A DNA stretch of 64,000 nucleotides from Akkermansiaceae bacterium (GTDB lineage Bacteria > Verrucomicrobiota > Verrucomicrobiia > Verrucomicrobiales > Akkermansiaceae), in NCBI GenBank assembly GCA_905182475.1, contig CAJJBR010000003.1, positions 1 to 64,000 on the forward strand, read 5' to 3'. Below the pieces are notes generated by a model, which was not told the origin of the DNA, did no database searches, and was given only the letters and a program-made list of their open reading frames with translations. Of this stretch, positions 8,565 through 54,691 are shown one piece after another. Every line of letters begins with the position of its first letter. The first letter of the stretch is position 1. Both the position numbers and the translations under genes were made by a program.

Positions 8565-9084
8565 ATGTTTTTCCGAGATCACATTCGCCTGACTGTTCTG
8601 ACTGTTTGCGTGCTTCCTCTGCCACGGCACCGATCCCGAGCACCGCGGAGGGGAGCTACGCTTGGACATCAGCGAGGAAGCCCTCGCACCGCGCGACGAA
8701 GGCCCGGCCATCATCCCGGGAAAGCCGATGGAGAGCGCGATCATCAAGCGCATCCTAGATACCGATCCGGACAATACCATGCCGCCTCCGGAGGCTCAAC
8801 TCGTGCCGCTCAAATCGGAACAAATCGAAACCCTCAAAACATGGATCGCCAACGGTGCGGTCTATGAGGATCACTGGGCTTTCGAAACTCCGGTGAAAGC
8901 CCCGTTTACGGAAGAACTTACTACGAATCCAGTAGATAACTTTATACGTGCCCGTTTGGCAAAGGAAGGTCTCGCACCCAGCCCCGAAGCTCCGCTGGAA
9001 ATCCAGATTCGCCGCTTCCAAGGCCTCAACCAGAAGCCAACAGGAGTCACCCCCGCGAAGGTAGTCACCGGAATCCTTGGCTAA
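8565..9084 (+). pseudogene. Remnant of a PSC1/DUF1549 (planctomycete cytochrome c) gene
   Basis: A plausible signal peptide start lies at 8565 (MFFRDHIRLTVLTV). The frame then shifts: from about 8602 the reading CFLCHG shows the heme-binding CxxCH motif, followed by the family-typical LRLDISEEAL, MPPPEAQL and NPVDNFIRARL. The sequence stops at 9084 shortly after the DUF1549 domain should begin, where an intact gene runs for another 600 or more residues. Both a 5-prime deletion with frameshift and a large 3-prime deletion are evident. Intact relatives are exported proteins, often next to DUF1501 and sulfatase genes, as here. Confidence 0.85.
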
Positions 9085-37378: not shown

Positions 37379-37771
37379 ATGAAAGCAGTCCTTCTCAAGC
37401 GTCTCTTCTCTGCCATTCGGCAGGGATCAGATCCTGATGTCGTGGCTGTTTGTGATCAGATCGTTAAGGACGAGAAGTCACTGGGCCACAATCGGCTGGC
37501 GGCAGATTTAGAGAAATCTCTCCAGCTTGCCAAGGAAAGGCAAAGCAAGCTGGGGGCCGCTTCCCCAGCGCCAAAGACCAGTTCTGCCATTCTGAGCTCA
37601 CTTCCTGCGAGCAAACGGGACTCCGCTCCCCTTGTTCAGGTCATTGCTCACAATGAGCTGCGCCATCACATGGTCCTCCCGGTCGAGATCGAGGAAAAGT
37701 TCCTCCGGATTGAACAAGAATTTGCCGCTCGCTCGCGTCTCGCTGCGCATGGACTCAAGCCAAGAAAGTCG
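37379..37771 (+). pseudogene. N-terminal fragment of an AAA-type ATPase
   Basis: About 130 residues from the ATG at 37379 look like the N-terminal part of a defence-linked AAA ATPase: VIAHNELRHHMVLPVEIEEK, then FAARSRLAAHGLKPRK. In relatives this is followed by the Walker A loop (GPPGTGKT type). Here the frame turns into SLAGRCCRCHP and ends at 37834, so the whole AAA core is gone. From 37749 another frame continues as an S8 peptidase. Confidence 0.7.
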
Positions 37772-39371
37772 CTGGCTGGACGGTGCTGTCGATGTCACCC
37801 GGTCACGATGCTTCATTCCGGGCAAACCTTCTGATGAAGTAGCTGACTATGTTCCCGGAGGTGGCCACGGAACCCGGGTCGGTGGCGTTTGTCTCTACCA
37901 CGATGAGGTTCCGAAAGCTGATTTGCACCAAGCTCCATTCTGGCTTCAAAATGCCCGAATTCTCGATGAAAACAATCACCTGCCCGAGGGCCTCTTCCCA
38001 GCGAAGGTGCTAGAGCAGATTGTCAGCTTTTATCTGGGCGAGACCGGCACCCGCCTTTACCAACATTCGATCGCGGCAACCCGTGCCTGCCGAACGTCAC
38101 GCATGTCCATCTGGGCCTGCACGATTGATCGTATCAGTCATCGCCGGGGAGTTCTCTTCATCCAGAGCGCCGGGAATCTGGTTGGTCGGAGTGCCGTAAA
38201 TGCTCCAGGAATTGCGGATCACCTTGAGAACGGAACGATCTATCCAAACTATCTCTATGAGTCCTCCAGCAGAATCGCCAACCCAGCCCAGAGTCTCCAG
38301 GCACTAACCGTCGGATCAGTCTCAGCCGATTATTTCGAAAATGGATCGGTGCAATCCATTTCGCCCAGCGGAAGACCATCCGCTTTTAGCCGTTCAGGAT
38401 TTGGTCTCTGGAAAAGTATCAAGCCCGAGGTTGTGGAGATCGGAGGAGATTATGCAAAAGACGCAAGTAGTCCCCCCTCGTTGACCTTCCCTCCGGAAGT
38501 CTGCCCGGAGATGCTCCGCTCCACCCTCGGCGGTGGACCAGCCCATGCGCGGGATGCGGTGGGCACTTCCTTTTCCGCGCCAAAAATTTCTCATATTGCC
38601 GGTCATCTGGCGGCACTTTTACCAGATGAAAGCCCCTTGCTTTACCGAGCCCTTATCGTCAATTCGGCACGCTGGCCTCAGTGGGCGGAAGAAGCCAATG
38701 TAAGTGAACGTCCAGAAATTACCCGCTCAATCGGCTACGGAATTCCAAATCTGGCACGTGCCAGCGAGAACTCTGAAGATCGTATCACCTTAATTACCGA
38801 AGGCGTTTGCGAAGCCCATGCCGGTGAGGGCTGCATCTTTGGTATACCAATTCCCGCGAATTTAAGAAGACCGGGCGAGGACCACGAAGTCCGGATCGAT
38901 GTCACTCTCTCATATTCCGCAGAGCCGCGAAGGACACGGAAATCAAGGAGAGGGTATCTCGGCGTTTGGCTCGATTGGGTTGCCAGCAAAAAGGAGGAAA
39001 CCTTCGAATCCTTCCGTGCCCGCGCCTTAAAGGACTTTGATCGTGAGGATACTGGTGGAGGTAATTTTGAATGGACTCTTGGAAAGAAAAGAACGGGAGA
39101 CGGTCAGACCCCGGGAGTCACCCGACAGAATGGCACCGTCCAAAAAGATTGGGTCTATGCGAGAAGCTTTGAGCTACCCGAAGTCCTTGGGATCGCTGTT
39201 CATGCCCATAAGGGTTGGTGCCTCGACGGATCAGAAACTGCGAAATTTACCGTCGTCGCATCCATTGAGATTCTCGGTGCGGGAGTTAAAGTCTATCAGG
39301 AGATTAAAAATGCCGTCGAAGTAGAGGCTGGACGAGTGCAGACTCAAAATGTTCTCGGCTCACTGTTCTAG
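37749..39371 (+). CDS. S8 (subtilisin-like) peptidase, N-terminally truncated
   Basis: The frame gives 540 residues from an ATG at 37749. The histidine motif GGGHGTRVGG (His40) and the serine motif GTSFSAPK (Ser about 273) of subtilases are present, with the oxyanion Asn in QSAGNL. The Asp motif is doubtful: the N-terminus MDSSQES resembles the DSG-type motif, but everything before it is lost. Similar S8 peptidases are encoded next to AAA ATPases in defence-type gene pairs (I recall the names IteA/IteS, unverified). The ATPase relic upstream fits this pairing. A functional product is uncertain. Confidence 0.75.
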   Translation: MDSSQESRWLDGAVDVTRSRCFIPGKPSDEVADYVPGGGHGTRVGGVCLYHDEVPKADLHQAPFWLQNARILDENNHLPEGLFPAKVLEQIVSFYLGETGTRLYQHSIAATRACRTSRMSIWACTIDRISHRRGVLFIQSAGNLVGRSAVNAPGIADHLENGTIYPNYLYESSSRIANPAQSLQALTVGSVSADYFENGSVQSISPSGRPSAFSRSGFGLWKSIKPEVVEIGGDYAKDASSPPSLTFPPEVCPEMLRSTLGGGPAHARDAVGTSFSAPKISHIAGHLAALLPDESPLLYRALIVNSARWPQWAEEANVSERPEITRSIGYGIPNLARASENSEDRITLITEGVCEAHAGEGCIFGIPIPANLRRPGEDHEVRIDVTLSYSAEPRRTRKSRRGYLGVWLDWVASKKEETFESFRARALKDFDREDTGGGNFEWTLGKKRTGDGQTPGVTRQNGTVQKDWVYARSFELPEVLGIAVHAHKGWCLDGSETAKFTVVASIEILGAGVKVYQEIKNAVEVEAGRVQTQNVLGSLF

Positions 39372-41176: not shown

Positions 41177-41283
41177 GATCGTCCATACATCCTGAAGCCG
41201 ACTGATACGGCTGCAATGCGTTTTCGCTGGCAAATCCGTATTCGACTTTGCATCGGGAACATATCACCTTTCCACTCGGAACT

Positions 41284-42465
41284 ATGAAAACTCTTGTCCT
41301 TCTCCTCACCATTGCCACCGCTACCACAGCGATGGCTCACCACCTTGAACGCGTTTGGACTGACGAAAAAGGCCGCAAAACAAAGGCGGAACTACTGAAG
41401 ATCGAAAACAACTGCGCGGTTCTCCTTCTTCCCGACGGACGCGAGGCTCCGTTTCCCATCGAGAAGCTTTCCAAGATCGATCAGGCCTTCATCGAGAAAT
41501 TCGAACTCGATGAAAGCCATGATGAGGAGGCGAAAGAGGAAGCGCCCGATCTCAATTTCGACGACCCGTGGCCGGATCGTGTGAAATTCAAAGGCGATCC
41601 GGAAATCGAAACGGTCGAAGAGGATGCCGATAAAAAGAGCTTCATCTATGAATCCGCCAACTACCGCTACAACTGCGACGTCCGGCTTTCTAAATCCGTC
41701 GTCAAAGGTTTCGCGGTGATGTTTGAGGCGACCCACCAGTTCGTCCGCGAGCTACCACTTGCAGTGAACGGCGGAAAGAAAAAGGAAGGAAAATACCAGA
41801 TCTTCCTTTTCGAAAATAAGAGCGACTATACCAAAGCAGGCGGCCCTCCCGGAAGCGCGGGAGTGTTCATTGGAGGGAAAAATATCGTGATGGTTCCGCT
41901 CACCAGCCTAGGTGTCCGCCCGGTAGGCAGCGGCTACATGCTGGACCGCAACAAATCATCGAAAACCCTCCCGCACGAGCTAGTCCACCAGCTCACGCCA
42001 AACCGCTACTACGCGGTCGGTTCCATGGGATGGTTCACAGAAGGACTGGCCGAATACGTTGCAACTACTCCTTACCGCTCTGGCTCCTACAACGTGAAGA
42101 CGAATTTCAAACCCATCGTCGAATACGTCACCGCCTACGGAAAAAAAGGCAACGGCGGCCGGGCACTCGGTGAGAAAATCGACCTTGGCAGCCTGAAGAG
42201 ATTCATGCTCCAGCCTTACGCTTCGTTCACCTCGAACGCGCAAGTCAACTACGGCTGCGGCCTACTCATCACCAACTACTTCTTCCACATGGATCGCAAA
42301 GAGGACGGAGCACGGATCAAAGGCTTCCTGAAAGCGCTCAACGACGGCAAGCAAGGCGAAGAGGCTCTTGAGGTCCTCCTCGACGGCCAGACCTTTGAGG
42401 AAATGGAAGAGGAAATCGCCAAGGCATACTCTCGCAAGGGAGTGGATTTCACTTTCTCCAACTAA
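41284..42465 (+). CDS. Exported SHD1-domain zinc metalloprotease-like protein
   Basis: The product has 393 residues. A signal peptide (MKTLVLLLTIATATTAMA) is followed by an SHD1 domain (RVWTDEKGRKTKAELLKIE, about residues 23-75). The C-terminal half is a gluzincin-type peptidase with HELVHQL (His231, Glu232, His235) and a downstream Glu in WFTEGLAEYVA. SHD1 domains are common in planctomycete and verrucomicrobial exported proteins. The substrate is unknown. The start at 41284 follows a short leader after the divergent isomerase. rlmN follows 27 bp downstream. Confidence 0.82.
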   Translation: MKTLVLLLTIATATTAMAHHLERVWTDEKGRKTKAELLKIENNCAVLLLPDGREAPFPIEKLSKIDQAFIEKFELDESHDEEAKEEAPDLNFDDPWPDRVKFKGDPEIETVEEDADKKSFIYESANYRYNCDVRLSKSVVKGFAVMFEATHQFVRELPLAVNGGKKKEGKYQIFLFENKSDYTKAGGPPGSAGVFIGGKNIVMVPLTSLGVRPVGSGYMLDRNKSSKTLPHELVHQLTPNRYYAVGSMGWFTEGLAEYVATTPYRSGSYNVKTNFKPIVEYVTAYGKKGNGGRALGEKIDLGSLKRFMLQPYASFTSNAQVNYGCGLLITNYFFHMDRKEDGARIKGFLKALNDGKQGEEALEVLLDGQTFEEMEEEIAKAYSRKGVDFTFSN

Positions 42466-42492: not shown

Positions 42493-43569
42493 ATGACGCT
42501 TCCCGCCCTCCCCGGACAATCCCCCGAAGCCCTTTCCGAATGGCTCAAAGAACAGGGCGAACCTCCATTCCGCGCGAAGCAGATCCTCGACTGGGTCTGG
42601 AAGAAGAAGGTCACTTCCATCGATGATATGACCAACCTCCCGGCCGTTCTCCGGGAAAAACTCGCCGCCTCCTTCCGGTTGACGGCGCTCACCCATTCGC
42701 AGACTCAGGGCAGCGAGGACACCACACGCAAATTCCTCTTCAAGCTTCACGACGGACGCTACGTGGAATCCGTCCTCATCCCCGCGAACCCCGCGCTCTA
42801 CGGAGAAAAATCCGACCGCCGCACGCTCTGTGTTTCCTCTCAGGTCGGCTGCGCATACGGTTGTAAATTCTGCGCGTCCGGCCTAGCGGGATTCACCCGG
42901 AATCTCGATGCTGCGGAAATCGCCGGACAGGTACTCACCGCAGAGCAGATTTCCGGCGAGCGTGTGGATAGCCTCGTCTTCATGGGCATGGGAGAGCCAA
43001 TGGCAAATTTCAAAAGCCTGATGGAGTCCATCGCCCTGATCACCGGCCCGGAAACCCTCCACCTCGGCGCACGCCACCTCACCATCTCCACCTCGGGGCT
43101 CGCCCCGCAGATCCGCCAGCTCGCAGATCACCCGCAGCAGATCCGGCTCGCCATTTCCTTCCACGGCGCCACCGACGAAGTCCGCTCGCAAATCATGCCG
43201 GTAAACAAAAAGTATCCGGTAGCCGAGCTGATGGACGCGCTGGAGCATTGGAACGCCACGAAAAAGCAAAAACTCACCCTCGAATACATCCTCATCCAGG
43301 GTGTGAACGACGGTCTAGACCAAGCCAAGATCCTCGCCAGCCACGCCCGCCGCATCCGCGCGAAGGTGAACCTGATTCCCTACAATACGGTCGATGGACT
43401 GGAGTGGAACCGCCCCGCCTTATCCCATTGCCGTGCCTTCCAGGACGTCTTGAAAAACGCAGGCGTCACCGCCACCCTCCGCATCGAGAAAGGCCACGAT
43501 ATCGACGCCGCCTGCGGCCAGCTCCGCCTGAAGCAGGAGACTGCCGAAGGATTGATAGAAACTGCCTGA
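42493..43569 (+). CDS. rlmN: 23S rRNA (adenine2503-C2)-methyltransferase
   Basis: A 358-residue radical-SAM enzyme. The CxxxCxxC iron-sulfur motif is GCAYGCKFC (Cys120, Cys124, Cys127). Other RlmN marks are the preceding RTLCVSSQVG, MGMGEPMANF and the C-terminal GHDIDAACGQL with the second catalytic cysteine. It methylates A2503 of 23S rRNA and also tRNA A37. The Cys pair and the length exclude Cfr-like shortening. The start is the ATG at 42493. Confidence 0.95.
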   Translation: MTLPALPGQSPEALSEWLKEQGEPPFRAKQILDWVWKKKVTSIDDMTNLPAVLREKLAASFRLTALTHSQTQGSEDTTRKFLFKLHDGRYVESVLIPANPALYGEKSDRRTLCVSSQVGCAYGCKFCASGLAGFTRNLDAAEIAGQVLTAEQISGERVDSLVFMGMGEPMANFKSLMESIALITGPETLHLGARHLTISTSGLAPQIRQLADHPQQIRLAISFHGATDEVRSQIMPVNKKYPVAELMDALEHWNATKKQKLTLEYILIQGVNDGLDQAKILASHARRIRAKVNLIPYNTVDGLEWNRPALSHCRAFQDVLKNAGVTATLRIEKGHDIDAACGQLRLKQETAEGLIETA

Positions 43570-43662
43570 CTCCCCCCAAAGTAGTGGCGACCTTAGATCG
43601 CCTCCGCGTTGCTGAGAAAAAAACCGGTAATATCCGCCCGTTTTCTGGTAATGTTTTTCAGA

Positions 43663-43897
43663 ATGTCCGCAAAACCCGAAACGCCCGAGGAAAACATCAT
43701 CGGCCTGATCACCAAGAATCAGGGGTCACTGCGCGCTTACATCTACACCCTTCTGCCGGATCCTGCGCTGGACAGACGACATCCTTCAGGAAACGAATCT
43801 CGTCATCTGGAGGAAAGCCACTGAATACGATGCCGCCCTCCGCGATTACCTCGCGGAACTGCCGGAACAGAAACGCCAGCTCATATTTTCCCACTGA
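43663..43897 (+). pseudogene. Remnant of a PVC-type sigma-70 factor
   Basis: The first frame reads ENIIGLITKNQGSLRAYIYT, typical of the N-terminus of the small sigma factors found with PSC1 gene clusters in Planctomycetes and Verrucomicrobia. After a frameshift near 43765, a second frame reads DDILQETNLVIWRKATEYD, the classical sigma region 2, then jumps to LAELPEQKRQLI and a stop at 43895. Region 4 is gone. The ATG of a following PSC1 gene comes six bases after the stop. Confidence 0.8.
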
Positions 43898-45512
43898 AAC
43901 CCATGTCCCGCCCGTCCTCACCTTCGCCGCCATCTGCCTAACCGCATCGGTAGCAGGAATCACATTCCTCGCCCTAAAGCAGAGTCCATCCCCCCCTCCC
44001 TCCATCACTCATTCCCTCCCTCCTCTCCAGTCATCTCCCCCACAGACGGTTTCCTTCAACGCCCACATCCGCCCCATCCTCTCGGATAAATGCTTCGCCT
44101 GCCACGGATTTGACTCCACCAAGCGGGAGGAAAACCTCCGACTCGATACCGAGGAAGGTGCTTACGCAGCTCTTGAAAGCGATTCGAGCCAGCACGCCAT
44201 CGTCCCGGGCGAGACGAAGAAGAGTGCGGTCTGGCAGCGCATCATGACCCCCGACGCGGAGGACGTCATGCCGCCGCCAGATTTCCACAAGCCACTCACG
44301 CAAACCGAGAAAGAACTCATCACCCGCTGGATAGCCCAGGGCGCAGAATACCAACAGCACTGGGCTTTCGCATCCATCAAGAAGCCCGCCGTTCCGGAAA
44401 CGAATGCAAAGAATCCCATCGACGCTTTTGTCCGCAAAAACCCCGAATCCTTCACCAAAGGCCAGCAGCTCGCCCTTGCCGGAGCAATCTGCGCCTTCGC
44501 GGCGAACGTCGACAACCTCGAAGTGCTCGGAGCCGCCGTCGAACGCATCGCCCAGAAACACGCCGGGCTGCGCATCCTGCCGGAGCATTATCCTATCGTC
44601 GGATCCAACTTACTCGCTTCGATCTGCGAGGTTCTTTCCCTCCCGGAGGATCACGAAATTATCACCGCGTGGGGCGAGGCCTACGGCTTCCTCGCCGACA
44701 TCCTCATCGGCAGGGAAAATCAGATCTACACTGGGCAGGAGACTGTAGAAAACGGCTGGAGCGGATTCAAGAACTTCAAAATCGCCCGCAAGGTTGCGGA
44801 AAGCGATGTCATCGATTCCTTCTATCTCGCTCCGGAAGACGGTTCAAAAGTTCCCTCCTACAAACCCGGCCAGTATCTCACCGTGCGCGTACCAGATGCG
44901 AACAGCGGCACCACGATGCGGAACTACAGCCTATCCTCCGCGCCGAACTCGGATCATTTCCGTATCAGCGTCAAAGCCGAGCCAGGCGGCGCGGTTTCGA
45001 ACCTTCTCCACGGGAAATCCGAGGGCGACACGCTCGAAGTCGGCCCGCCTTGCGGCGAGTTTTTTCTCGATCTCACCGAACACCACGAGCGACCACTGGT
45101 TCTGCTCTCGGCAGGTGTTGGCATCACCCCGCTTCTCGCGATCCTGGAAAGCGTCATTGCGGAGCAACCGCAGCGAAAAGTCATTTTCATCCACGGTTCC
45201 CTGTATGGTAAAACCCACGCCTTCGCCGACCACGTCCGAGAAATCGCCGCGAAGAATTCGAACGTCACCGCTCACATGCGCTACAGCGAACCGAACGAGG
45301 AGGACATCGCGGCAAAGCGTTTCGACAGCACCGGATTCATCGATGCAGAACTCATCGAGAGTCTCGTCCCCGGTCGCGACTGCGATTATTTCTTCTGCGG
45401 TCCGAAGCCTTTCATGACTGCCATTTACCGTCAGCTCCTGGCATGGGGAATTCCCGGCGGCCAGGTACATTTCGAGTTCTTCGGTCCACGAGAGGAGCTG
45501 GAGGCTGGCTGA
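43830..45512 (+). CDS. Chimeric PSC1 cytochrome c and flavohemoglobin frame
   Basis: An open frame of about 560 residues joins two unrelated families. Residues 32-203 (from the ATG at 43830) form a membrane anchor and a PSC1 domain with heme motif CFACH (88-92), MPPPDFHKPLT and NPIDAFV. At about residue 204 it switches to flavohemoglobin: the globin lacks its first 45 residues but keeps the proximal His244 in RIAQKHAG, followed by an intact FAD domain (RNYSLSS) and NAD domain (SAGVGITPLL, GPKPFM). The start is uncertain: the natural PSC1 start at 43903 is out of frame by one base. Intact flavohemoglobins oxidise nitric oxide to nitrate. This is probably a deletion product, but the frame is uninterrupted. 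Confidence 0.7.
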   Translation: MPPSAITSRNCRNRNASSYFPTETHVPPVLTFAAICLTASVAGITFLALKQSPSPPPSITHSLPPLQSSPPQTVSFNAHIRPILSDKCFACHGFDSTKREENLRLDTEEGAYAALESDSSQHAIVPGETKKSAVWQRIMTPDAEDVMPPPDFHKPLTQTEKELITRWIAQGAEYQQHWAFASIKKPAVPETNAKNPIDAFVRKNPESFTKGQQLALAGAICAFAANVDNLEVLGAAVERIAQKHAGLRILPEHYPIVGSNLLASICEVLSLPEDHEIITAWGEAYGFLADILIGRENQIYTGQETVENGWSGFKNFKIARKVAESDVIDSFYLAPEDGSKVPSYKPGQYLTVRVPDANSGTTMRNYSLSSAPNSDHFRISVKAEPGGAVSNLLHGKSEGDTLEVGPPCGEFFLDLTEHHERPLVLLSAGVGITPLLAILESVIAEQPQRKVIFIHGSLYGKTHAFADHVREIAAKNSNVTAHMRYSEPNEEDIAAKRFDSTGFIDAELIESLVPGRDCDYFFCGPKPFMTAIYRQLLAWGIPGGQVHFEFFGPREELEAG

Positions 45513-45621
45513 CCATTCCCGACTACCAGATTTTTCGTAGTTCGTTCATGCGACCTTCCGGAAACGGCGAAAACCAAAACCGCAGTGGTGCCCATTGAGG
45601 CGATGAGCGCGGAGGCGTCGC

Positions 45622-45756
45622 TCAGAATGATTGGGCGATACCTGAGCGCTCGCCCGTAGAATAGAGCCAGACAACGGCGAGGATGTAGTTGCCGGCGCCA
45701 GGTAGTGGGCCGTTGAACCAGATGATTCCAAAACTCCAAAACTCCAAAACTCCAAA
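45622..45756 (-). other. Gene-poor stretch with a degraded exported-protein tail and an 8-bp repeat
   Basis: The minus strand reads WFNGPLPGAGNYILAVVWLY and GERSGIAQSF, then a stop, while a second frame nearby contains a PEP-CTERM-like hydrophobic run (SALIASMGTTAVLVFAV). This looks like the broken C-terminus of an exported protein, but the family is not clear. At 45727-45756 the unit TCCAAAAC is repeated nearly four times. Nothing else is recognised between 45513 and 45830. Confidence 0.4.
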
Positions 45757-45830
45757 TGGCAAATCCGACTGTTAAGAGGAAATTAAGAGTCAGTCCGACT
45801 TTTCTCAGAATACTCCGGGTCTTGCCTGAG

Positions 45831-46904
45831 CTACTTTTTGAGGGGGTTCAGGAGGGCATCGACTGTGAGCTCCACGAAGGAGCCGGGGAGGCCAGTGAAT
45901 TGGATTTTTCCTTGCGCATCGATCACGAAGACGGCCGGACGGTTGTTGATCCGGTATTCTTTTGTGAGTTTTTCCGTTGGGTCTGAAATGTTGTTCCAGA
46001 GGATGGAGCCATCGCCCTGGAGGGTGCGGATACGTTCGGCGGATTCCGGAGTGACGCCGAGGACAGTGACCGGCTGGTCGCGGTATTTTGTGGCGAGTTG
46101 ATTGGTCAGTTGGATGATTTGGTCGGTCGCTTCCGTTTTCGCATCCCAGAAAAGCAGGATAACCATCCGGCCTTTGAAATCGGAGAGTTTGACCGGGCGG
46201 GCGGCGACATCTGTTCCGGAAAGCGGGGGAGCCTCACGGCCTTTGGTGAGGTAGCGGATCACGTAGAGCTCGTCCGATGCGATATCGGCAACGCTGGTTC
46301 CGGCGATGATCTGATCGGCGCTTTTGATGATGGCCTCGCGGAGGAAGTTGAGGCGTTTCGCCATTAGCTCGGGTTCGTCGCCAAGGCTTTTCAGAAGCAT
46401 TGCTGCACCGAGGGCGGCGATTCCCTGGGTGGCTTCGTCTGGGTTTTCGGTGGCGATTTTTTCAAGAAGGGACAATGCTTGCGGTTCCCCGCTATCGATC
46501 AGCGCAATGGTGAAGGGCGTGATGTCGGGTTTCTTCAGATGGGTTTCCGAAAAAGTCTTGAGGAGGCGCTGTCGCTCGCTGACGAAGGCGGCCTTGGTGA
46601 TACCGCTGTCGTCGGTGATTGTGGTGTTTTTTGAGATGCCTAGGAAAAGCGCGGCGTAGGGGATGATCCAGTCCTCGGCAAGATCCGGGGCGATGATCCG
46701 CCATAGCTCGGCGGCGGCGGCGTTCGGGTCGGGACGTTTCGCGATCACCTCCTGCCGGGCTTCCGGGGTGGTGGCGAGTTTCATCTCGAGTATCCATTTT
46801 TCCGAGGAAAGCTCGAAGCCGCGCTTGATCCGCTCCGCCTCGGCGGGGTTCGCACGGGCACCGGTGGAAAGCAGCAGACAGAGGATGGTGAGTTTTTTGA
46901 GCAT
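45831..46904 (-). CDS. Exported thioredoxin-fold protein without the CxxC motif
   Basis: The product has 357 residues. It has a signal peptide (MLKKLTILCLLLSTGARA), then a helical region of about 200 residues, then a TlpA/ResA-like redoxin domain (about residues 225-355): VKLSDFKGRMVILLFWDAK, VTVLGVTPES and RPAVFVIDAQGKI. At the position where the redox-active CxxC is expected after FW, the sequence reads DAKTEATD, so it has no catalytic cysteines. It may be a binding or scaffold version of the fold. The start ATG is at 46904. It stands downstream of a hairpin repeat. Confidence 0.75.
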   Translation of the reverse strand: MLKKLTILCLLLSTGARANPAEAERIKRGFELSSEKWILEMKLATTPEARQEVIAKRPDPNAAAAELWRIIAPDLAEDWIIPYAALFLGISKNTTITDDSGITKAAFVSERQRLLKTFSETHLKKPDITPFTIALIDSGEPQALSLLEKIATENPDEATQGIAALGAAMLLKSLGDEPELMAKRLNFLREAIIKSADQIIAGTSVADIASDELYVIRYLTKGREAPPLSGTDVAARPVKLSDFKGRMVILLFWDAKTEATDQIIQLTNQLATKYRDQPVTVLGVTPESAERIRTLQGDGSILWNNISDPTEKLTKEYRINNRPAVFVIDAQGKIQFTGLPGSFVELTVDALLNPLKK

Positions 46905-47475: not shown

Positions 47476-50046
47476 TTATTCGGTGGGTGGTTCTTCGGAT
47501 GACTCGGTTTCGGTGGCGGGATCGATTTTCGCAAGAACGACGCGGAAGCCGTAATATGCGCCGTGGAAGCTGGAGGGGACGGGGTTGCGCCAACCGGTGA
47601 GTAGGTTTTCTTTCAGGAATGTATTCCAGCCGCCGCCGCGCAGGATGCCGAGCGAGTTCGTGCCGATGGTGGACATGTCGTCGGAGACCCACTCGTGGAC
47701 GTTTCCGCTGAGATCCTTGATACCGAGTTCGCTGGGCGGGAAGGAACCGACGGGAGCCGTGCGCGGGAAGTCGTCGTTGTAGTCCACGATCACGCGGTCT
47801 GCGGAAATGCCGGGAAGCTCGGATGCGGATGTGTCGGCGTAGTTTGCGTGGGCGTTGGGCGGCGGCCATTTCGTTCCCCAGGAATAGAGGGTGGGCTTGT
47901 TCGCATCGCGCTGGCCGGGGGCGTCTCCGAGCTCGAAATCGAGACCGGCCATGCGGCTCCATTCGATATCCGTGGGAAGCCGGTAGTGGTGGGATGTTGC
48001 GATACGCTCTTCTTTCCGTTCCTTTTCCGTGAGCCAGTTGCAGAAGGCCTCTGCATCATTCCGTGAAACGTAGATCATAGGATGATCGGGTCCTTGTTCG
48101 AAATCCGGGCGGCGCGGGCGTTCGTAATTCGAACGGTTTACAAACATCTTGTAATCCCGGACGCGGGTTTCCCAAACCGATGCCATGAGGTCGGAGCCGA
48201 GCGGCACGAACTGCATTTCGATTCCGTTCTTCCACGGCTTTCCGAACACGACACCCTGGTTCTGCTCCAAGACGGCGGTGAGGGGGAGGTTTCCTCCCGC
48301 GTTGACCCGGGCGTTTATGGTGAGGGGCTTGTAACCTTCAAGGATAATGAGCAGCCGCACCGGCCCCGGCTTTACTTTCGGGATGAGCAGGGTGCCCGCT
48401 GTCGAGCCGACGGAGACCCCGTTCATATAGATATCCGCGCCGGGTGGATTGCTAACCAGTTGCACGCTTCCGTAGGTATATTCCCGGACGACGATGCGAA
48501 AGGGCTTCAGGCTCTCGCGGCGGGCGCGCTTGCTGAGTGCGGGATCGTTGAACGATTGCTCCACCCTGCCAAGAATCTCGTTGTCTCTAGTGAGGAATCC
48601 CTCGCGGATGCCCCCCGCGCGGATCCAGTCGGAAAAGGCGATAATTTCCGGTTTGGAGGCGAGGACGACTTCAGATTTCTTGCCGTTTTCGGAAATCTTT
48701 ATGAACTCGACGGATTTCGGCGAGCGCTTGGATGATTTCATGAAATCCTGCCACGTGAGTTTCGAAACGAAGCTCGAGGAGACGTGCTCCCCGCCCTCTG
48801 GCAGGTAGACAAGGTCGAGATGGTCTTCCCATTTCTCACCGGCGACGGGTGGGGAAAAATTCAGAAGCTCTCCGTAAAGCAGCATTGGATCCTTGACGGC
48901 CTCCTCGGTAAGGGTGGCGGTGACTACGAGTGAGCGGTAACCCTTTTTCCTGACGGTGTAGCTAAGCTCGGTGCCCACCTTCGCACGCATGATAGCGGTA
49001 GGTGTAATGCCAATCAAATTCCCTTCTTCTGAGAAAACCTCTGCGCCCTCAGGGATAGTCACGACCCGGAGCATACCTTCCGCTACGATGGCTCTCGGTG
49101 GTAGCGGTGCGTTCCATGGTAGCCAGTCGCCGTCCTTGATGCCCTCCCATGATGCCCATCCGGCGAAGCCGAGAAGGATGAGGGTCGTCGCCCAGATGGA
49201 CAGGCCGCTACGGCGGCGGCGTTTGCCGTGCTGGAGATTGTGGAGGGCGGCGGCAAGTTCACCTGCGGTGGAGATTTTGCGCTTGCTGATGCGTGGCTCG
49301 CACACCTCGCAGATAATGCGGTTCAGCTCTAGCCAGCGTTTCCGCTCAAGGCCAGTGGGCAGCTCGTCGGGCAGCTCTGGGAAATCGAGGCGGTCTTTCC
49401 CGGTGGCGATTTCGTAGAGGACTTTCCCCAAGGAATACACGTCCGCCTGCGCAGAGCCGGGGCCTTCCGGAGGAACGAAGCCCTCGGTGCCTACGAATGT
49501 CCGCTGGTCACGTGTGGCGACTAGGCCGATGTCCGCGAGCTTGGCCTTACCGTTTACGAAAATAACGTTCGATGGCTTCACATCGCGATGGGCGAGATCG
49601 CGCTCGTGGAGGTGGTTGAGCGCCTCGGAAAGCCGCACGCCCACATCGATACAAAGTCCGATTTCCAGGCGGACTCCTGCCTTGCCATCGGCGCGCAGGG
49701 TTTTTGCCTCGTACTCGATCGGGTTGATGTCCTGTCCGGCGTGGACGTCATCGCCCAGCTCCATCACGTAGTAGTAGAAAGACACGCCGTCTGGGCTGCG
49801 ACCGACATGGAGGATGTTCACCAGCCCCGGATGATCCCGGGAGATTGGCTCGAATTTTAGGATGCCCTCAAACTCGCGCTCGAAAGTCCGCTCGTCATCG
49901 AAGTCCTCGCGCCAGACCACTTTCACGGCTCGCATCGCGCCGGTGACCCCACGCGCCATCCATACTTCTCCGTACGAACCGCCGCCGATTTTTCGGAGGA
50001 CGTCGTGATCCGGGATATTCGGGTGGGTGCGGATTTTTTCGGCCAT
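47476..50046 (-). CDS. Ser/Thr protein kinase with PEGA and FGE-sulfatase-like domains
   Basis: An 856-residue membrane protein. Residues 13-270 form a Hanks-type kinase with the glycine loop GGGSYGEVW, Lys42, HRDVKPSN (Asp155) and a DIG instead of DFG at 172-174. One membrane helix follows near residues 285-300. PEGA-type beta domains follow (SEEGNLIGITPTAI; SNPPGADIYMNGVSVGST). The C-terminal 250 residues resemble the formylglycine-generating-enzyme fold (AEAFCNWLTEKE, LSGNVHEWVSDD, GFRVVL). Such kinases sense the cell exterior; the FGE-like domain is mostly a ligand-binding module in these proteins. An ECF-type sigma factor gene lies upstream. Confidence 0.92.
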   Translation of the reverse strand: MAEKIRTHPNIPDHDVLRKIGGGSYGEVWMARGVTGAMRAVKVVWREDFDDERTFEREFEGILKFEPISRDHPGLVNILHVGRSPDGVSFYYYVMELGDDVHAGQDINPIEYEAKTLRADGKAGVRLEIGLCIDVGVRLSEALNHLHERDLAHRDVKPSNVIFVNGKAKLADIGLVATRDQRTFVGTEGFVPPEGPGSAQADVYSLGKVLYEIATGKDRLDFPELPDELPTGLERKRWLELNRIICEVCEPRISKRKISTAGELAAALHNLQHGKRRRRSGLSIWATTLILLGFAGWASWEGIKDGDWLPWNAPLPPRAIVAEGMLRVVTIPEGAEVFSEEGNLIGITPTAIMRAKVGTELSYTVRKKGYRSLVVTATLTEEAVKDPMLLYGELLNFSPPVAGEKWEDHLDLVYLPEGGEHVSSSFVSKLTWQDFMKSSKRSPKSVEFIKISENGKKSEVVLASKPEIIAFSDWIRAGGIREGFLTRDNEILGRVEQSFNDPALSKRARRESLKPFRIVVREYTYGSVQLVSNPPGADIYMNGVSVGSTAGTLLIPKVKPGPVRLLIILEGYKPLTINARVNAGGNLPLTAVLEQNQGVVFGKPWKNGIEMQFVPLGSDLMASVWETRVRDYKMFVNRSNYERPRRPDFEQGPDHPMIYVSRNDAEAFCNWLTEKERKEERIATSHHYRLPTDIEWSRMAGLDFELGDAPGQRDANKPTLYSWGTKWPPPNAHANYADTSASELPGISADRVIVDYNDDFPRTAPVGSFPPSELGIKDLSGNVHEWVSDDMSTIGTNSLGILRGGGWNTFLKENLLTGWRNPVPSSFHGAYYGFRVVLAKIDPATETESSEEPPTE

Positions 50047-50158: not shown

Positions 50159-50824
50159 TCACTCCGTCTCGTCTTCGAGTTTCGCTAGTTCCTTTTTCAA
50201 AACGGAACCCACGCGATGTTTTGCGAGATAGACTTGCGCCATGCTGACGTTGAGTTTGTCCTGTACCTTCTTCGCATCCCATTGCCGGACTACGTAGTAG
50301 TCGAAAATTTGGTATTGCTTCGGGGAAACTTGCGACTTCACCCGGGCAAGCGCCGCATCGGCGATGCCCTTTTTCCACTCCAAGTTCCACAAGCGTTCGA
50401 GCACGTCGCCATTGGGATCCTCGATGCGGTCGATCACGGCGGTCTTACGTTCGTCGCCCCAGTCGCCAGTGTTCATCGCGGTGTCCTTCTTGCGCTTGCG
50501 GAATTGGTCGTTGATGCGCCAGCGGGTCATGTTCATCAGCCAGGTTTTGAAGGAGCCTTGGTCGGGATCGTAGAGCTTCTTTTTACTCTGTTTTGCGATG
50601 GAAAGGATGGTTTCCTGGACGCAATCAAAAGCTTCCTCGGGGCGCAGCCCGGCGCGGATGGCCACGGAATAGATCAGCCGCCAGTAGGTTTGGTAGAACT
50701 CGTCCCAGGTCTTCTGGTCTTCCCAATTGTCTAGTCTGGCGATCAGGCTTTTCCGCGTTTTGGCGTAGGCCTGGGCAATTACCGCGTCCTTTTGCTTGGG
50801 TTTTTCATCTTCTTCATCGGACAT
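50159..50824 (-). CDS. ECF-type sigma-70 factor linked to the kinase
   Basis: The product has 221 residues. Region 2 is visible as WDEFYQTYWRLIYSVA and the EAFDCVQETILSI core motif, and region 4 as KQYQIFDYYVVRQWDAKKVQDKL with SMAQVYLAKHRVG. This is the kinase-associated kind of ECF sigma factor found in Planctomycetes and Verrucomicrobia (ECF43-like), in which phosphorylation by the neighbouring kinase is thought to control the factor. The kinase gene follows after 112 bp on the same strand. That space contains ACTTTAAA AT-rich motifs. Confidence 0.88.
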   Translation of the reverse strand: MSDEEDEKPKQKDAVIAQAYAKTRKSLIARLDNWEDQKTWDEFYQTYWRLIYSVAIRAGLRPEEAFDCVQETILSIAKQSKKKLYDPDQGSFKTWLMNMTRWRINDQFRKRKKDTAMNTGDWGDERKTAVIDRIEDPNGDVLERLWNLEWKKGIADAALARVKSQVSPKQYQIFDYYVVRQWDAKKVQDKLNVSMAQVYLAKHRVGSVLKKELAKLEDETE

Positions 50825-52600: not shown

Positions 52601-54691
52601 CTACTCCTGCGGGACGTGTGGCTCGAAGGTCATGGCGCGCTCGTGCTCGCGGGCTTTGGCGGTGCGTTTGGCCTGTTGGTAGAAGTAGTCTTGGGCGCGG
52701 AAGGGCTTTTCGCCTTTCTTTGGGAGGTTTTTCCGTGAGGTGCCGTCCGGAAGGATGTGGTAGGCGTTCTGGTTGTCTTTGAAGAACGTTTCCAGGATGC
52801 GGATGAGGCGGCGCTTGATGGCTTTTTGCTCGATGGGAACCAATAGCTCCACGCGTTTTTCTAGGTTGCGAGTCATCCAGTCTGCGGAGGAGATGTAGAC
52901 TTGTGGGTCGCCGCCTTGGTGGAAGTAGAAGAGGCGGGCGTGCTCTAGGAATCGATCGATGACGGAGACGACTTCGATGTTCTTGGAGAATTTCTCACCG
53001 GGGATGAGACAGCAGATTCCGCGGACGTTGAGCAGGACTTCTACTCCGGCTTCCGAGGCGGTGTAGAGGGCGGCGATGATTTCAGGATCTTGGAGGGAGT
53101 TGGTTTTTGCTGTAATTTTTGCAGGGAGGCCTTGTTTGGCGCGTTCCGTCTCGCCGGCGATGAGGTCGAGAAGGCGGGGCTTCATCGCGGAGGGAGCGGG
53201 AATGAGGCGCTGGAAGCGGAGGAGCTTGGAGCGGCCAGTGACGGCGTTGAAGAGGAGGGAGGCGTCGTTTCCATACTCCGCCTTGCAGGTGAGGTAGGAG
53301 AGGTCGGTGTAGAGACGGGAAGTGGTCTCGTTGTAATTTCCCGTGCCGAGGTGGACGTAGCGGCGGATGTGGCCGGACTCGCGGCGGAGGATAAGGCAGA
53401 TCTTGGCGTGGGTTTTGAGGTTTTTTACCCCGTAAACGATCTGTGCGCCGGCGCGCTGGAGTTCGTCGGCCCGGGTGAGGTTGCGGGCTTCGTCGAAGCG
53501 GGCTTTTAGCTCTACCAAGGCGGTGACGTGTTTGCCGTTTTCCGCAGCCTTGATAAGTGCATCGATGATGCGGGACCGGCTGGCGGTGCGGTAAAGGATC
53601 TGCTTGATGGCGATGACATCTGGATCCACGGCGGCCTCCTCGATCAGGCGGATAACGGGATCGAAGGATTCGTAGGGGTGGAAGAGGAGGACGTCGCGCG
53701 AGGCGATGGTCTCGAACATCGATTCGCCTGGGGTGATGGCGGGGCTGCTCTGGGCGGGCCAGTCTTCGTCGCGGAGGTGGTCGAAGTCCTGGAGGAAGGC
53801 GAGCTCCATGAAGGAGGAAAGGCCGAGTGGGCCGTCGTGGCGGTAGATTTCCTGGGAGGTGGAGGAGGTGACCGCCTTGATCATGCTGGAAAGGTCGCGG
53901 CGGGCGTCCGAGCGGATTTCGAGCCGGACGGTATCGGCGAAACGCCGGGCGGTAAGGACGTCTTCCATTTCGTCTGCGAGGTCGGTGGCGTCATCTTCTT
54001 CGACGGCGATGTCACCGTTTCGCGTGACGCGGAAGGCGGTGGTGGCGGTGATGTCTTCACCTGGGAAAAGGCGATCCGCGTAGTCTGCGACAAGATCCTC
54101 GATGAGGATGAAGGCGTGCGTTCCATCTTCCGTGGTGACTGCGATGCGGCGGGGCAGGTTCTCGTGGATGGGGATGAGGACGTGCCGGTTGGTTTTGTCG
54201 GCGGGATCGAATAGGCGGCAGGCGAGGACGATGTGGAGCGCGGGGACTGAGGGAGGTGTCGAGTTTGGATCGACGGCCAATGGTGTCAGAAGCGGGGAGA
54301 TGCTATCCTCGAAAACGGCGGAGGCCTGTGCACGCTGCTGGTCGGTAAGCTGATGGGCGGCAAGGAGTACGATGCCCTTCTGTGCGAGCGCTGGGATGAG
54401 TGTGTGATTGAGGAGCTCGTATTGATCGGCGTTCATCTGCAAGACCCGCTCGCGGATGGCGGCGAGGTTACGGACGGGTGTGAAGCCGGAATTGTCTCGG
54501 GTCTTCCTGCCGCTGCGGCGCTGCAACATGAGAGAGCCGACTCGAACTTGGAAAAACTCGTCCATGTTGGATGCGGAAATGGCGAGGAATTTGACTCGTT
54601 CGAGCAAGGGCAGTTTTTCACCAAGGGCTTGGTCAAGGACGCGCTGGTTGAATTCGAGCCAGGAGAGTTCGCGGTTGTGGTATTTGGGCAT
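52601..54691 (-). CDS. ppk1: Polyphosphate kinase 1
   Basis: This 696-residue enzyme follows PPK1 throughout: N-terminal NRELSWLEFNQRVLDQA, the central LFHPYESFDPVIRLIEEAA, and the PLD-like domains with RRYVHLGTGNYNETTSRLYTD, where the histidine is autophosphorylated, and HQGGDPQVYISSADWMTRNL. It makes polyphosphate from ATP reversibly. The length is normal. It forms a cluster with an exopolyphosphatase and a PPK2, separated by a toxin-antitoxin pair. Confidence 0.96.
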   Translation of the reverse strand: MPKYHNRELSWLEFNQRVLDQALGEKLPLLERVKFLAISASNMDEFFQVRVGSLMLQRRSGRKTRDNSGFTPVRNLAAIRERVLQMNADQYELLNHTLIPALAQKGIVLLAAHQLTDQQRAQASAVFEDSISPLLTPLAVDPNSTPPSVPALHIVLACRLFDPADKTNRHVLIPIHENLPRRIAVTTEDGTHAFILIEDLVADYADRLFPGEDITATTAFRVTRNGDIAVEEDDATDLADEMEDVLTARRFADTVRLEIRSDARRDLSSMIKAVTSSTSQEIYRHDGPLGLSSFMELAFLQDFDHLRDEDWPAQSSPAITPGESMFETIASRDVLLFHPYESFDPVIRLIEEAAVDPDVIAIKQILYRTASRSRIIDALIKAAENGKHVTALVELKARFDEARNLTRADELQRAGAQIVYGVKNLKTHAKICLILRRESGHIRRYVHLGTGNYNETTSRLYTDLSYLTCKAEYGNDASLLFNAVTGRSKLLRFQRLIPAPSAMKPRLLDLIAGETERAKQGLPAKITAKTNSLQDPEIIAALYTASEAGVEVLLNVRGICCLIPGEKFSKNIEVVSVIDRFLEHARLFYFHQGGDPQVYISSADWMTRNLEKRVELLVPIEQKAIKRRLIRILETFFKDNQNAYHILPDGTSRKNLPKKGEKPFRAQDYFYQQAKRTAKAREHERAMTFEPHVPQE

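Follow-up and report, generated by a model that had tools for sequence, protein, structure and literature searches.

The window, the whole 64,000-nucleotide stretch of DNA that we analysed, comes from an assembly (G000) of 144 contigs and 3.38 Mb that is ~90% complete, and the locus described here lies within a 76-kb contig. On the forward strand, an open frame runs uninterrupted from an ATG at 43830 to a stop at 45512. Four Pfam domains were recognised in it: PSCyt1 (PF07635, residues 88-151, E 4.5e-15), a partial Globin (PF00042, matched only at 35-115 of its 117 positions), and complete FAD_binding_6 (PF00970) and NAD_binding_1 (PF00175) domains. The NCBIfam flavohemoprotein model NF009805 matches the frame over positions 51-398 of 399 with 447 bits (cutoff 432). 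The PSCyt1 domain is the 'PSC1' of the first-pass annotation, and we keep the shorter name for this half of the frame; the other half is referred to as Hmp. Over the two halves there are ~534 codons with zero stops and, since both halves are unmistakable homologues of their families, the joined frame exceeds chance.

The first-pass annotation had read the frame as a cytochrome c domain followed by a flavohemoglobin, and the Pfam domains, the NF009805 match and the open frame bear this out; the hydrophobic N-terminal stretch, the CFACHG motif and the missing first globin helices are likewise as it described them. Its gene span of 43830-45512 held only in part. The frame is open throughout the span, but the open stretch starts already at 42972, and ATG 43830 is just one among several in-frame start codons and sits within the remnant of a sigma-factor gene; by homology, the ATG native to PSC1 is the one at 43904. 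The features are collected in Table 1.

Table 1. Positions of the gene pieces, start and junction at the joined frame, and of the second PSC1 remnant, in the window
Feature	Positions	Strand	Basis
Sigma-70-family (ECF-size) remnant, N-terminal ~34 codons (MSAKPETPEENIIGLITKNQGSLRAYIYTLLPD), then frameshift	43663-43776	+	homology, shuffle test
Continuation of the sigma remnant in a second frame: DDILQETNLVIWRKATEYD, ~55-codon internal deletion, ~17 later codons (ALRDYLAELPEQKRQLI), stop	43775-43897	+	homology, shuffle test
Equivalent by position of the native PSC1 start (ATG 43904), not in the PSC1 frame; gives MSRPSSPSPPSA before a stop	43904-43942	+	spacing compared with relatives
PSC1 (PSCyt1) part of a PSCyt1-PSCyt2-PSD1 gene	43911-44435	+	homology to ~1030-aa proteins; PF07635
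Junction stretch KNPESFTKGQQ, single-codon origin uncertain	44433-44466	+	alignments
Flavohemoglobin lacking ~50 codons at its beginning, with complete FAD and NAD domains and a native-like stop	44463-45512	+	homology, NF009805
Second PSC1 remnant; lacks a start and continues in frame into the final ~22 codons of a DUF1501 gene	8602-9084	+	PF07635, tail homology

The two halves and their junction

The PSC1 half has a hydrophobic N-terminus and the heme c domain of a PSCyt1-PSCyt2-PSD1 protein, with the c-type heme motif CFACHG. Full-length PSCyt1-PSCyt2-PSD1 genes are carried by four congeneric genomes (G004, G005, G008 and G017); their products are ~1030 aa long, and the first ~200 aa of these share 61-65% identity with this half. 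In the G017 protein, PSCyt1 is followed by PSCyt2 from residue 174 and by PSD1 from residue 744. Although both of these domains are present in the relatives, neither was found by Pfam in the joined frame, tblastn recovered no further PSCyt2 or PSD1 piece in the 64-kb window, and no orthologous remainder was found elsewhere in G000 at its ~90% completeness, where other PSC1 proteins match at <=54%.

The beginning of the PSC1 gene is also damaged. From the ATG to the codon opening the hydrophobic stretch there are 21 nt in G004, G017 and G008 but 11 nt in the window, and this net 10-base loss leaves no in-frame start codon directly before the hydrophobic stretch; read from its own ATG, the window form terminates after 12 codons. 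The corresponding G004 sequence is CGCCC-N5-CGCCC, and slippage between the CGCCC copies would presumably yield the form seen in the window.

The Hmp half is 72.7% identical to residues 104-451 of the Co_bin.17 Hmp frame. Intact Hmp genes of ~400 aa are present in the same genus (G288, G138 and G281), in the same family (G135 and G191), and in G038 and others of the order; near relatives that bear names are verrucomicrobial assemblies. Our Hmp alignment comprised the window and 16 relatives (L046, in which the frame is broken, was left out). In the tree the Hmp half groups with seven verrucomicrobial Hmps (support 100/97) and, less surely, with those of G288 and G138 (86/95). In G138 (L161, 86-8911), the intact Hmp gene lies about 5 kb from relatives of window genes 47476-50046 (a kinase, 55%) and 50159-50824 (81%), so that Hmp is found in the vicinity of this gene pair in two genomes.

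The 3-over-3 globin domain is incomplete: NF009805 matches only from position 51 and PF00042 only from position 35. The HFY and FFN/LFN columns, present in 16 of 16 Hmp relatives in the alignment, are missing from the window. We take these to be the distal-pocket residues B10 Tyr and CD1 Phe (Tyr29 and Phe43 of E. coli Hmp), neither of which the window sequence has. The proximal His (F8; AQKH) and the FAD- and NAD-binding domains are all present. A globin survey names F8 His, E7 and CD1 as positions that its alignments required (PMC1457004). No other Hmp N-terminus was found in G000.

By sequence comparison the break point falls at about 44433-44466 and cannot be fixed to one base. The first-pass annotation placed it at an Asn-Pro common to both parents. 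This did not hold: the four PSC1 relatives have Asn-Leu (FVR-A/S-NL; FIRENL) and only Hmp has Asn-Pro-Glu. The PSC1 relatives continue after NPIDAFVR-A/S-NL (in G004 the form is NSIDNFIRENL), and NPESFTK in the window may be a small vestige of Hmp, in which case about 8 more codons were lost in frame.

The join itself was seen nowhere else. An 86-aa query across it matched 47 of the 288 genomes of the order at E <=1e-6, with the full 86 residues covered in the window's own genome alone. Four other rows of this search ran partly past the join; on reading, all four were ordinary PSC1 proteins. A 24-base pattern across the join was present at 5 of 183 loci, each of them from the same place as the window. 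Among 80 named loci there was no row with PSC1 and a reductase domain together, and the four rows read of those extending beyond the PSC1 part (L057, L078, L059 and L073) were PSC1 proteins without a globin. The same fusion, which the first-pass annotation proposed to look for in other genomes, is thus confined to the window's own among the 288 of the order. We also considered a new conserved architecture, and rejected it on the absence of the join from every other genome searched. In the portions accessible to us of the literature on flavohemoglobin/cytochrome c fusions, PSC1/PSD1 and DUF1501/DUF1553, including PMC5615132 and PMC1457004, the join is undescribed.

Probable remains of PSC1 operons in the window

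Between rlmN and PSC1 lie the pieces of the sigma-factor gene, in two frames. The MSAKPETPEENIIGLITKNQGSLRAYIYTLLPD piece, which on its own has no Pfam match, aligns over 33-36 aa, at 43-52% identity, with the sigma factors of G031, G002 and G009, giving scores of 84-92 against a maximum of 42 among 1000 shuffles. The DDILQETNLVIWRKATEYD segment (19 residues) is 77% identical over 22 aa to the G031 protein and scores 87-90 (shuffle maximum 42). The ALRDYLAELPEQKRQLI segment is weaker: it scores 43 with G031 (shuffle maximum 36) and 37 with G009 (shuffle maximum 37), and with G002 it is not above the shuffles. The sigma factors of G031 and G002, the two tested, carry Sigma70_r2.

In G031 the gene order is sigma, FecR-domain protein, PSC1 gene and DUF1501, a complete operon. 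G020 has the same order of sigma (a 192-aa frame), FecR-type gene and PSC1 gene up to the contig end. The sigma/FecR-type/PSC1 order is also found in G002 and G009, where the PSC1 gene is more distant. As in other operons of this kind, the FecR-domain protein is presumably the anti-sigma factor. No relative of it was found in G000, where no closer sigma factor was found elsewhere either; the identical query matched 4 of the 4 genomes expected to have the FecR-type gene. The sigma piece suggests that the PSC1 gene of the window was once part of a sigma/anti-sigma/PSC1 operon. This ancestral arrangement is something that we infer rather than observe, because other genes lie upstream of the closest PSC1 relatives (G004, G005, G008 and G017) and the operon-type sigma precedes PSC1 genes of the G031 and G020 type.

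The rlmN upstream neighbour (window 41248-42465) is retained at 4 of the 9 rlmN loci compared (G005, G008, G017 and G015), and an orthologous PSC1 gene or Hmp gene is near rlmN at none of the 9; in G004 and G008 the sequence about 2 kb upstream of rlmN resembles PSC1 only distantly (28-30%). A polyphosphate kinase gene (window 52601-54691) lies 8 kb from PSC1 on the opposite strand, and in G017, G005 and G008 it is close to PSC1 on the same strand. A rearrangement at the PSC1/polyphosphate kinase locus is likely. Past the Hmp stop, window 45513-45830 holds a short tandem of TCCAAAAC units. Further upstream, the frame at 37632-39371 (+) matches the model of the S8-family anti-phage peptidase IteS far below its cutoff (84.5 bits versus 900), and its product is probably a plain S8 peptidase.

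A second PSC1 remnant lies elsewhere in the window (Table 1). It has the PF07635 domain (E 3.7e-17), a stop directly before it in its frame and no start codon ahead of the heme motif. Its DUF1501 tail (FQGLNQKPTGVTPAKVVTGIL) scores 82 against the DUF1501 protein of G002, with a maximum of 41 in 1000 shuffles. From these comparisons, two PSC1 operons, within 36 kb of each other, appear to have been lost from the window by deletion, the second in-frame remnant indicating that such a collapse occurred twice. Two in-frame joins in one window are slightly above the expectation for random frames (1 in 9).

Origin of the joined frame

The joined frame is very probably a compound pseudogene, formed when several deletions collapsed a PSC1 operon and fused it in frame to the remnant of an Hmp gene. 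Both halves are truncated, and the PSC1 half also frameshifted, relative to intact homologues, and relatives have the intact genes. An operon of a sigma factor, a FecR-type anti-sigma factor and a PSCyt1-PSCyt2-PSD1 gene, usually then DUF1501, would have collapsed through several deletions. One large deletion would have begun near codon 180 of PSC1 and ended near codon 50 of the flavohemoglobin gene, with the frame kept by chance. The order of these events, slippage at the CGCCC repeat and the view that no useful protein is made are the parts that we infer. The first-pass annotation had also preferred an origin by deletion, which our data support; it had not taken account of the other lesions in the operon, the frameshift at the native start or the remnant at 8602-9084. 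It had further held that separate intact genes in relatives would tell against a meaningful fusion, and such genes are present for both parents: PSCyt1-PSCyt2-PSD1 in the four genomes named above, and Hmp in G288, G138, G281, G135, G191, G038 and others.

There is little sign of decay beyond the deletions. In the Hmp half, the window differs at 4 of the 120 sites that do not vary among the 16 other rows (0-11 for those rows), and in the PSC1 half at 1 of 56 (others 0-7); by these conserved-site counts, neither half has a clear excess of amino-acid decay. In a relative-rate test one pair had excess change in the window (31 versus 13 sites, against G135) and the other pairs had none. With no clear decay and no stop in the frame, either the lesions arose recently or the frame remains in use, and recent deletions are the simplest account.

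We consider it unlikely that the join is an assembly artefact, in which unrelated reads were joined or strain variants collapsed while the organism itself has intact genes. In its favour are an assembly in 144 contigs that is 90% complete and the absence of the join from every other genome searched. Against it, the locus lies inside a 76-kb contig, and misassembly would have to account for each of several separate lesions as well as for a second remnant at a distance of 35 kb. The rest of the assembly yielded no complementary piece of PSCyt2/PSD1, of the sigma or anti-sigma gene, or of the Hmp N-terminus. The 10-base loss fits repeat slippage.

A working chimera, in which a membrane-anchored heme c domain carries an attached flavin reductase, is very improbable. 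The heme c motif and the FAD and NAD domains are intact, without a clear excess of substitutions, and the reductase part of the structure model is predicted with confidence (residues 311-550, block pLDDT 73-94). The PSC1 and globin parts of the model, however, built on a thin alignment of 12 sequences, are of low confidence and too uncertain for use; the first helices of the globin are gone, and B10 Tyr and CD1 Phe with them, the sole in-frame ATG upstream of PSC1 is inside another broken gene, and the join is known from one genome only. As judged from sequence, any product could hardly work as an NO dioxygenase: B10 Tyr and CD1 Phe are lost, and a protein exported in the manner of PSC1 would carry its NAD(P)H reductase out of the cytoplasm, where this reductase would be without its substrate. 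Loss of the distal pocket, loss of the start and the wrong side of the membrane thus disfavour a kept function in general, and we give equally little credence to a young expressed chimera kept in frame for some use, with the second PSC1 remnant as a sister case of PSC1 re-use. No promoter-like site was found in 43500-45850, although this is a weak test. Least credible of all is that an internal start still yields the reductase half by itself, a cytoplasmic flavin reductase bearing a globin stub. The reductase domains are complete and an in-frame GTG at 44523 is a candidate start, but the 25 bases preceding that GTG hold no Shine-Dalgarno-like stretch, and no promoter-like site was found.

Read as a compound pseudogene, the locus is a small example of the loss of PSC1 operons by deletion in the genus. 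It is also a warning: decay can leave a clean frame of 560 codons in which four domains are recognisable, and an annotation pipeline would log this as a new domain architecture.

Comparison with known genes and operons

PSCyt1-PSCyt2-PSD1 proteins (DUF1549/DUF1553) of Planctomycetes and Verrucomicrobia share with the window gene a hydrophobic N-terminal stretch, the PSCyt1 domain and the boundary motif NPIDAFVR; unlike them, the window gene lacks everything past ~codon 180 (~830-850 codons) and has its native start frameshifted. Compared with the sigma/FecR-type anti-sigma/PSCyt1-PSCyt2-PSD1/DUF1501 operons of the genus, the sigma factor of the window is broken and the anti-sigma and DUF1501 genes are gone, whilst the order of a sigma piece and then PSC1 on one strand is alike. 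Measured against Hmp (NF009805), the window sequence is without the first ~50 residues, including B10 Tyr and CD1 Phe, and without its own start codon, but keeps the E-H region of the globin, which includes the proximal His, as well as the FAD and NAD domains and the C-terminus.
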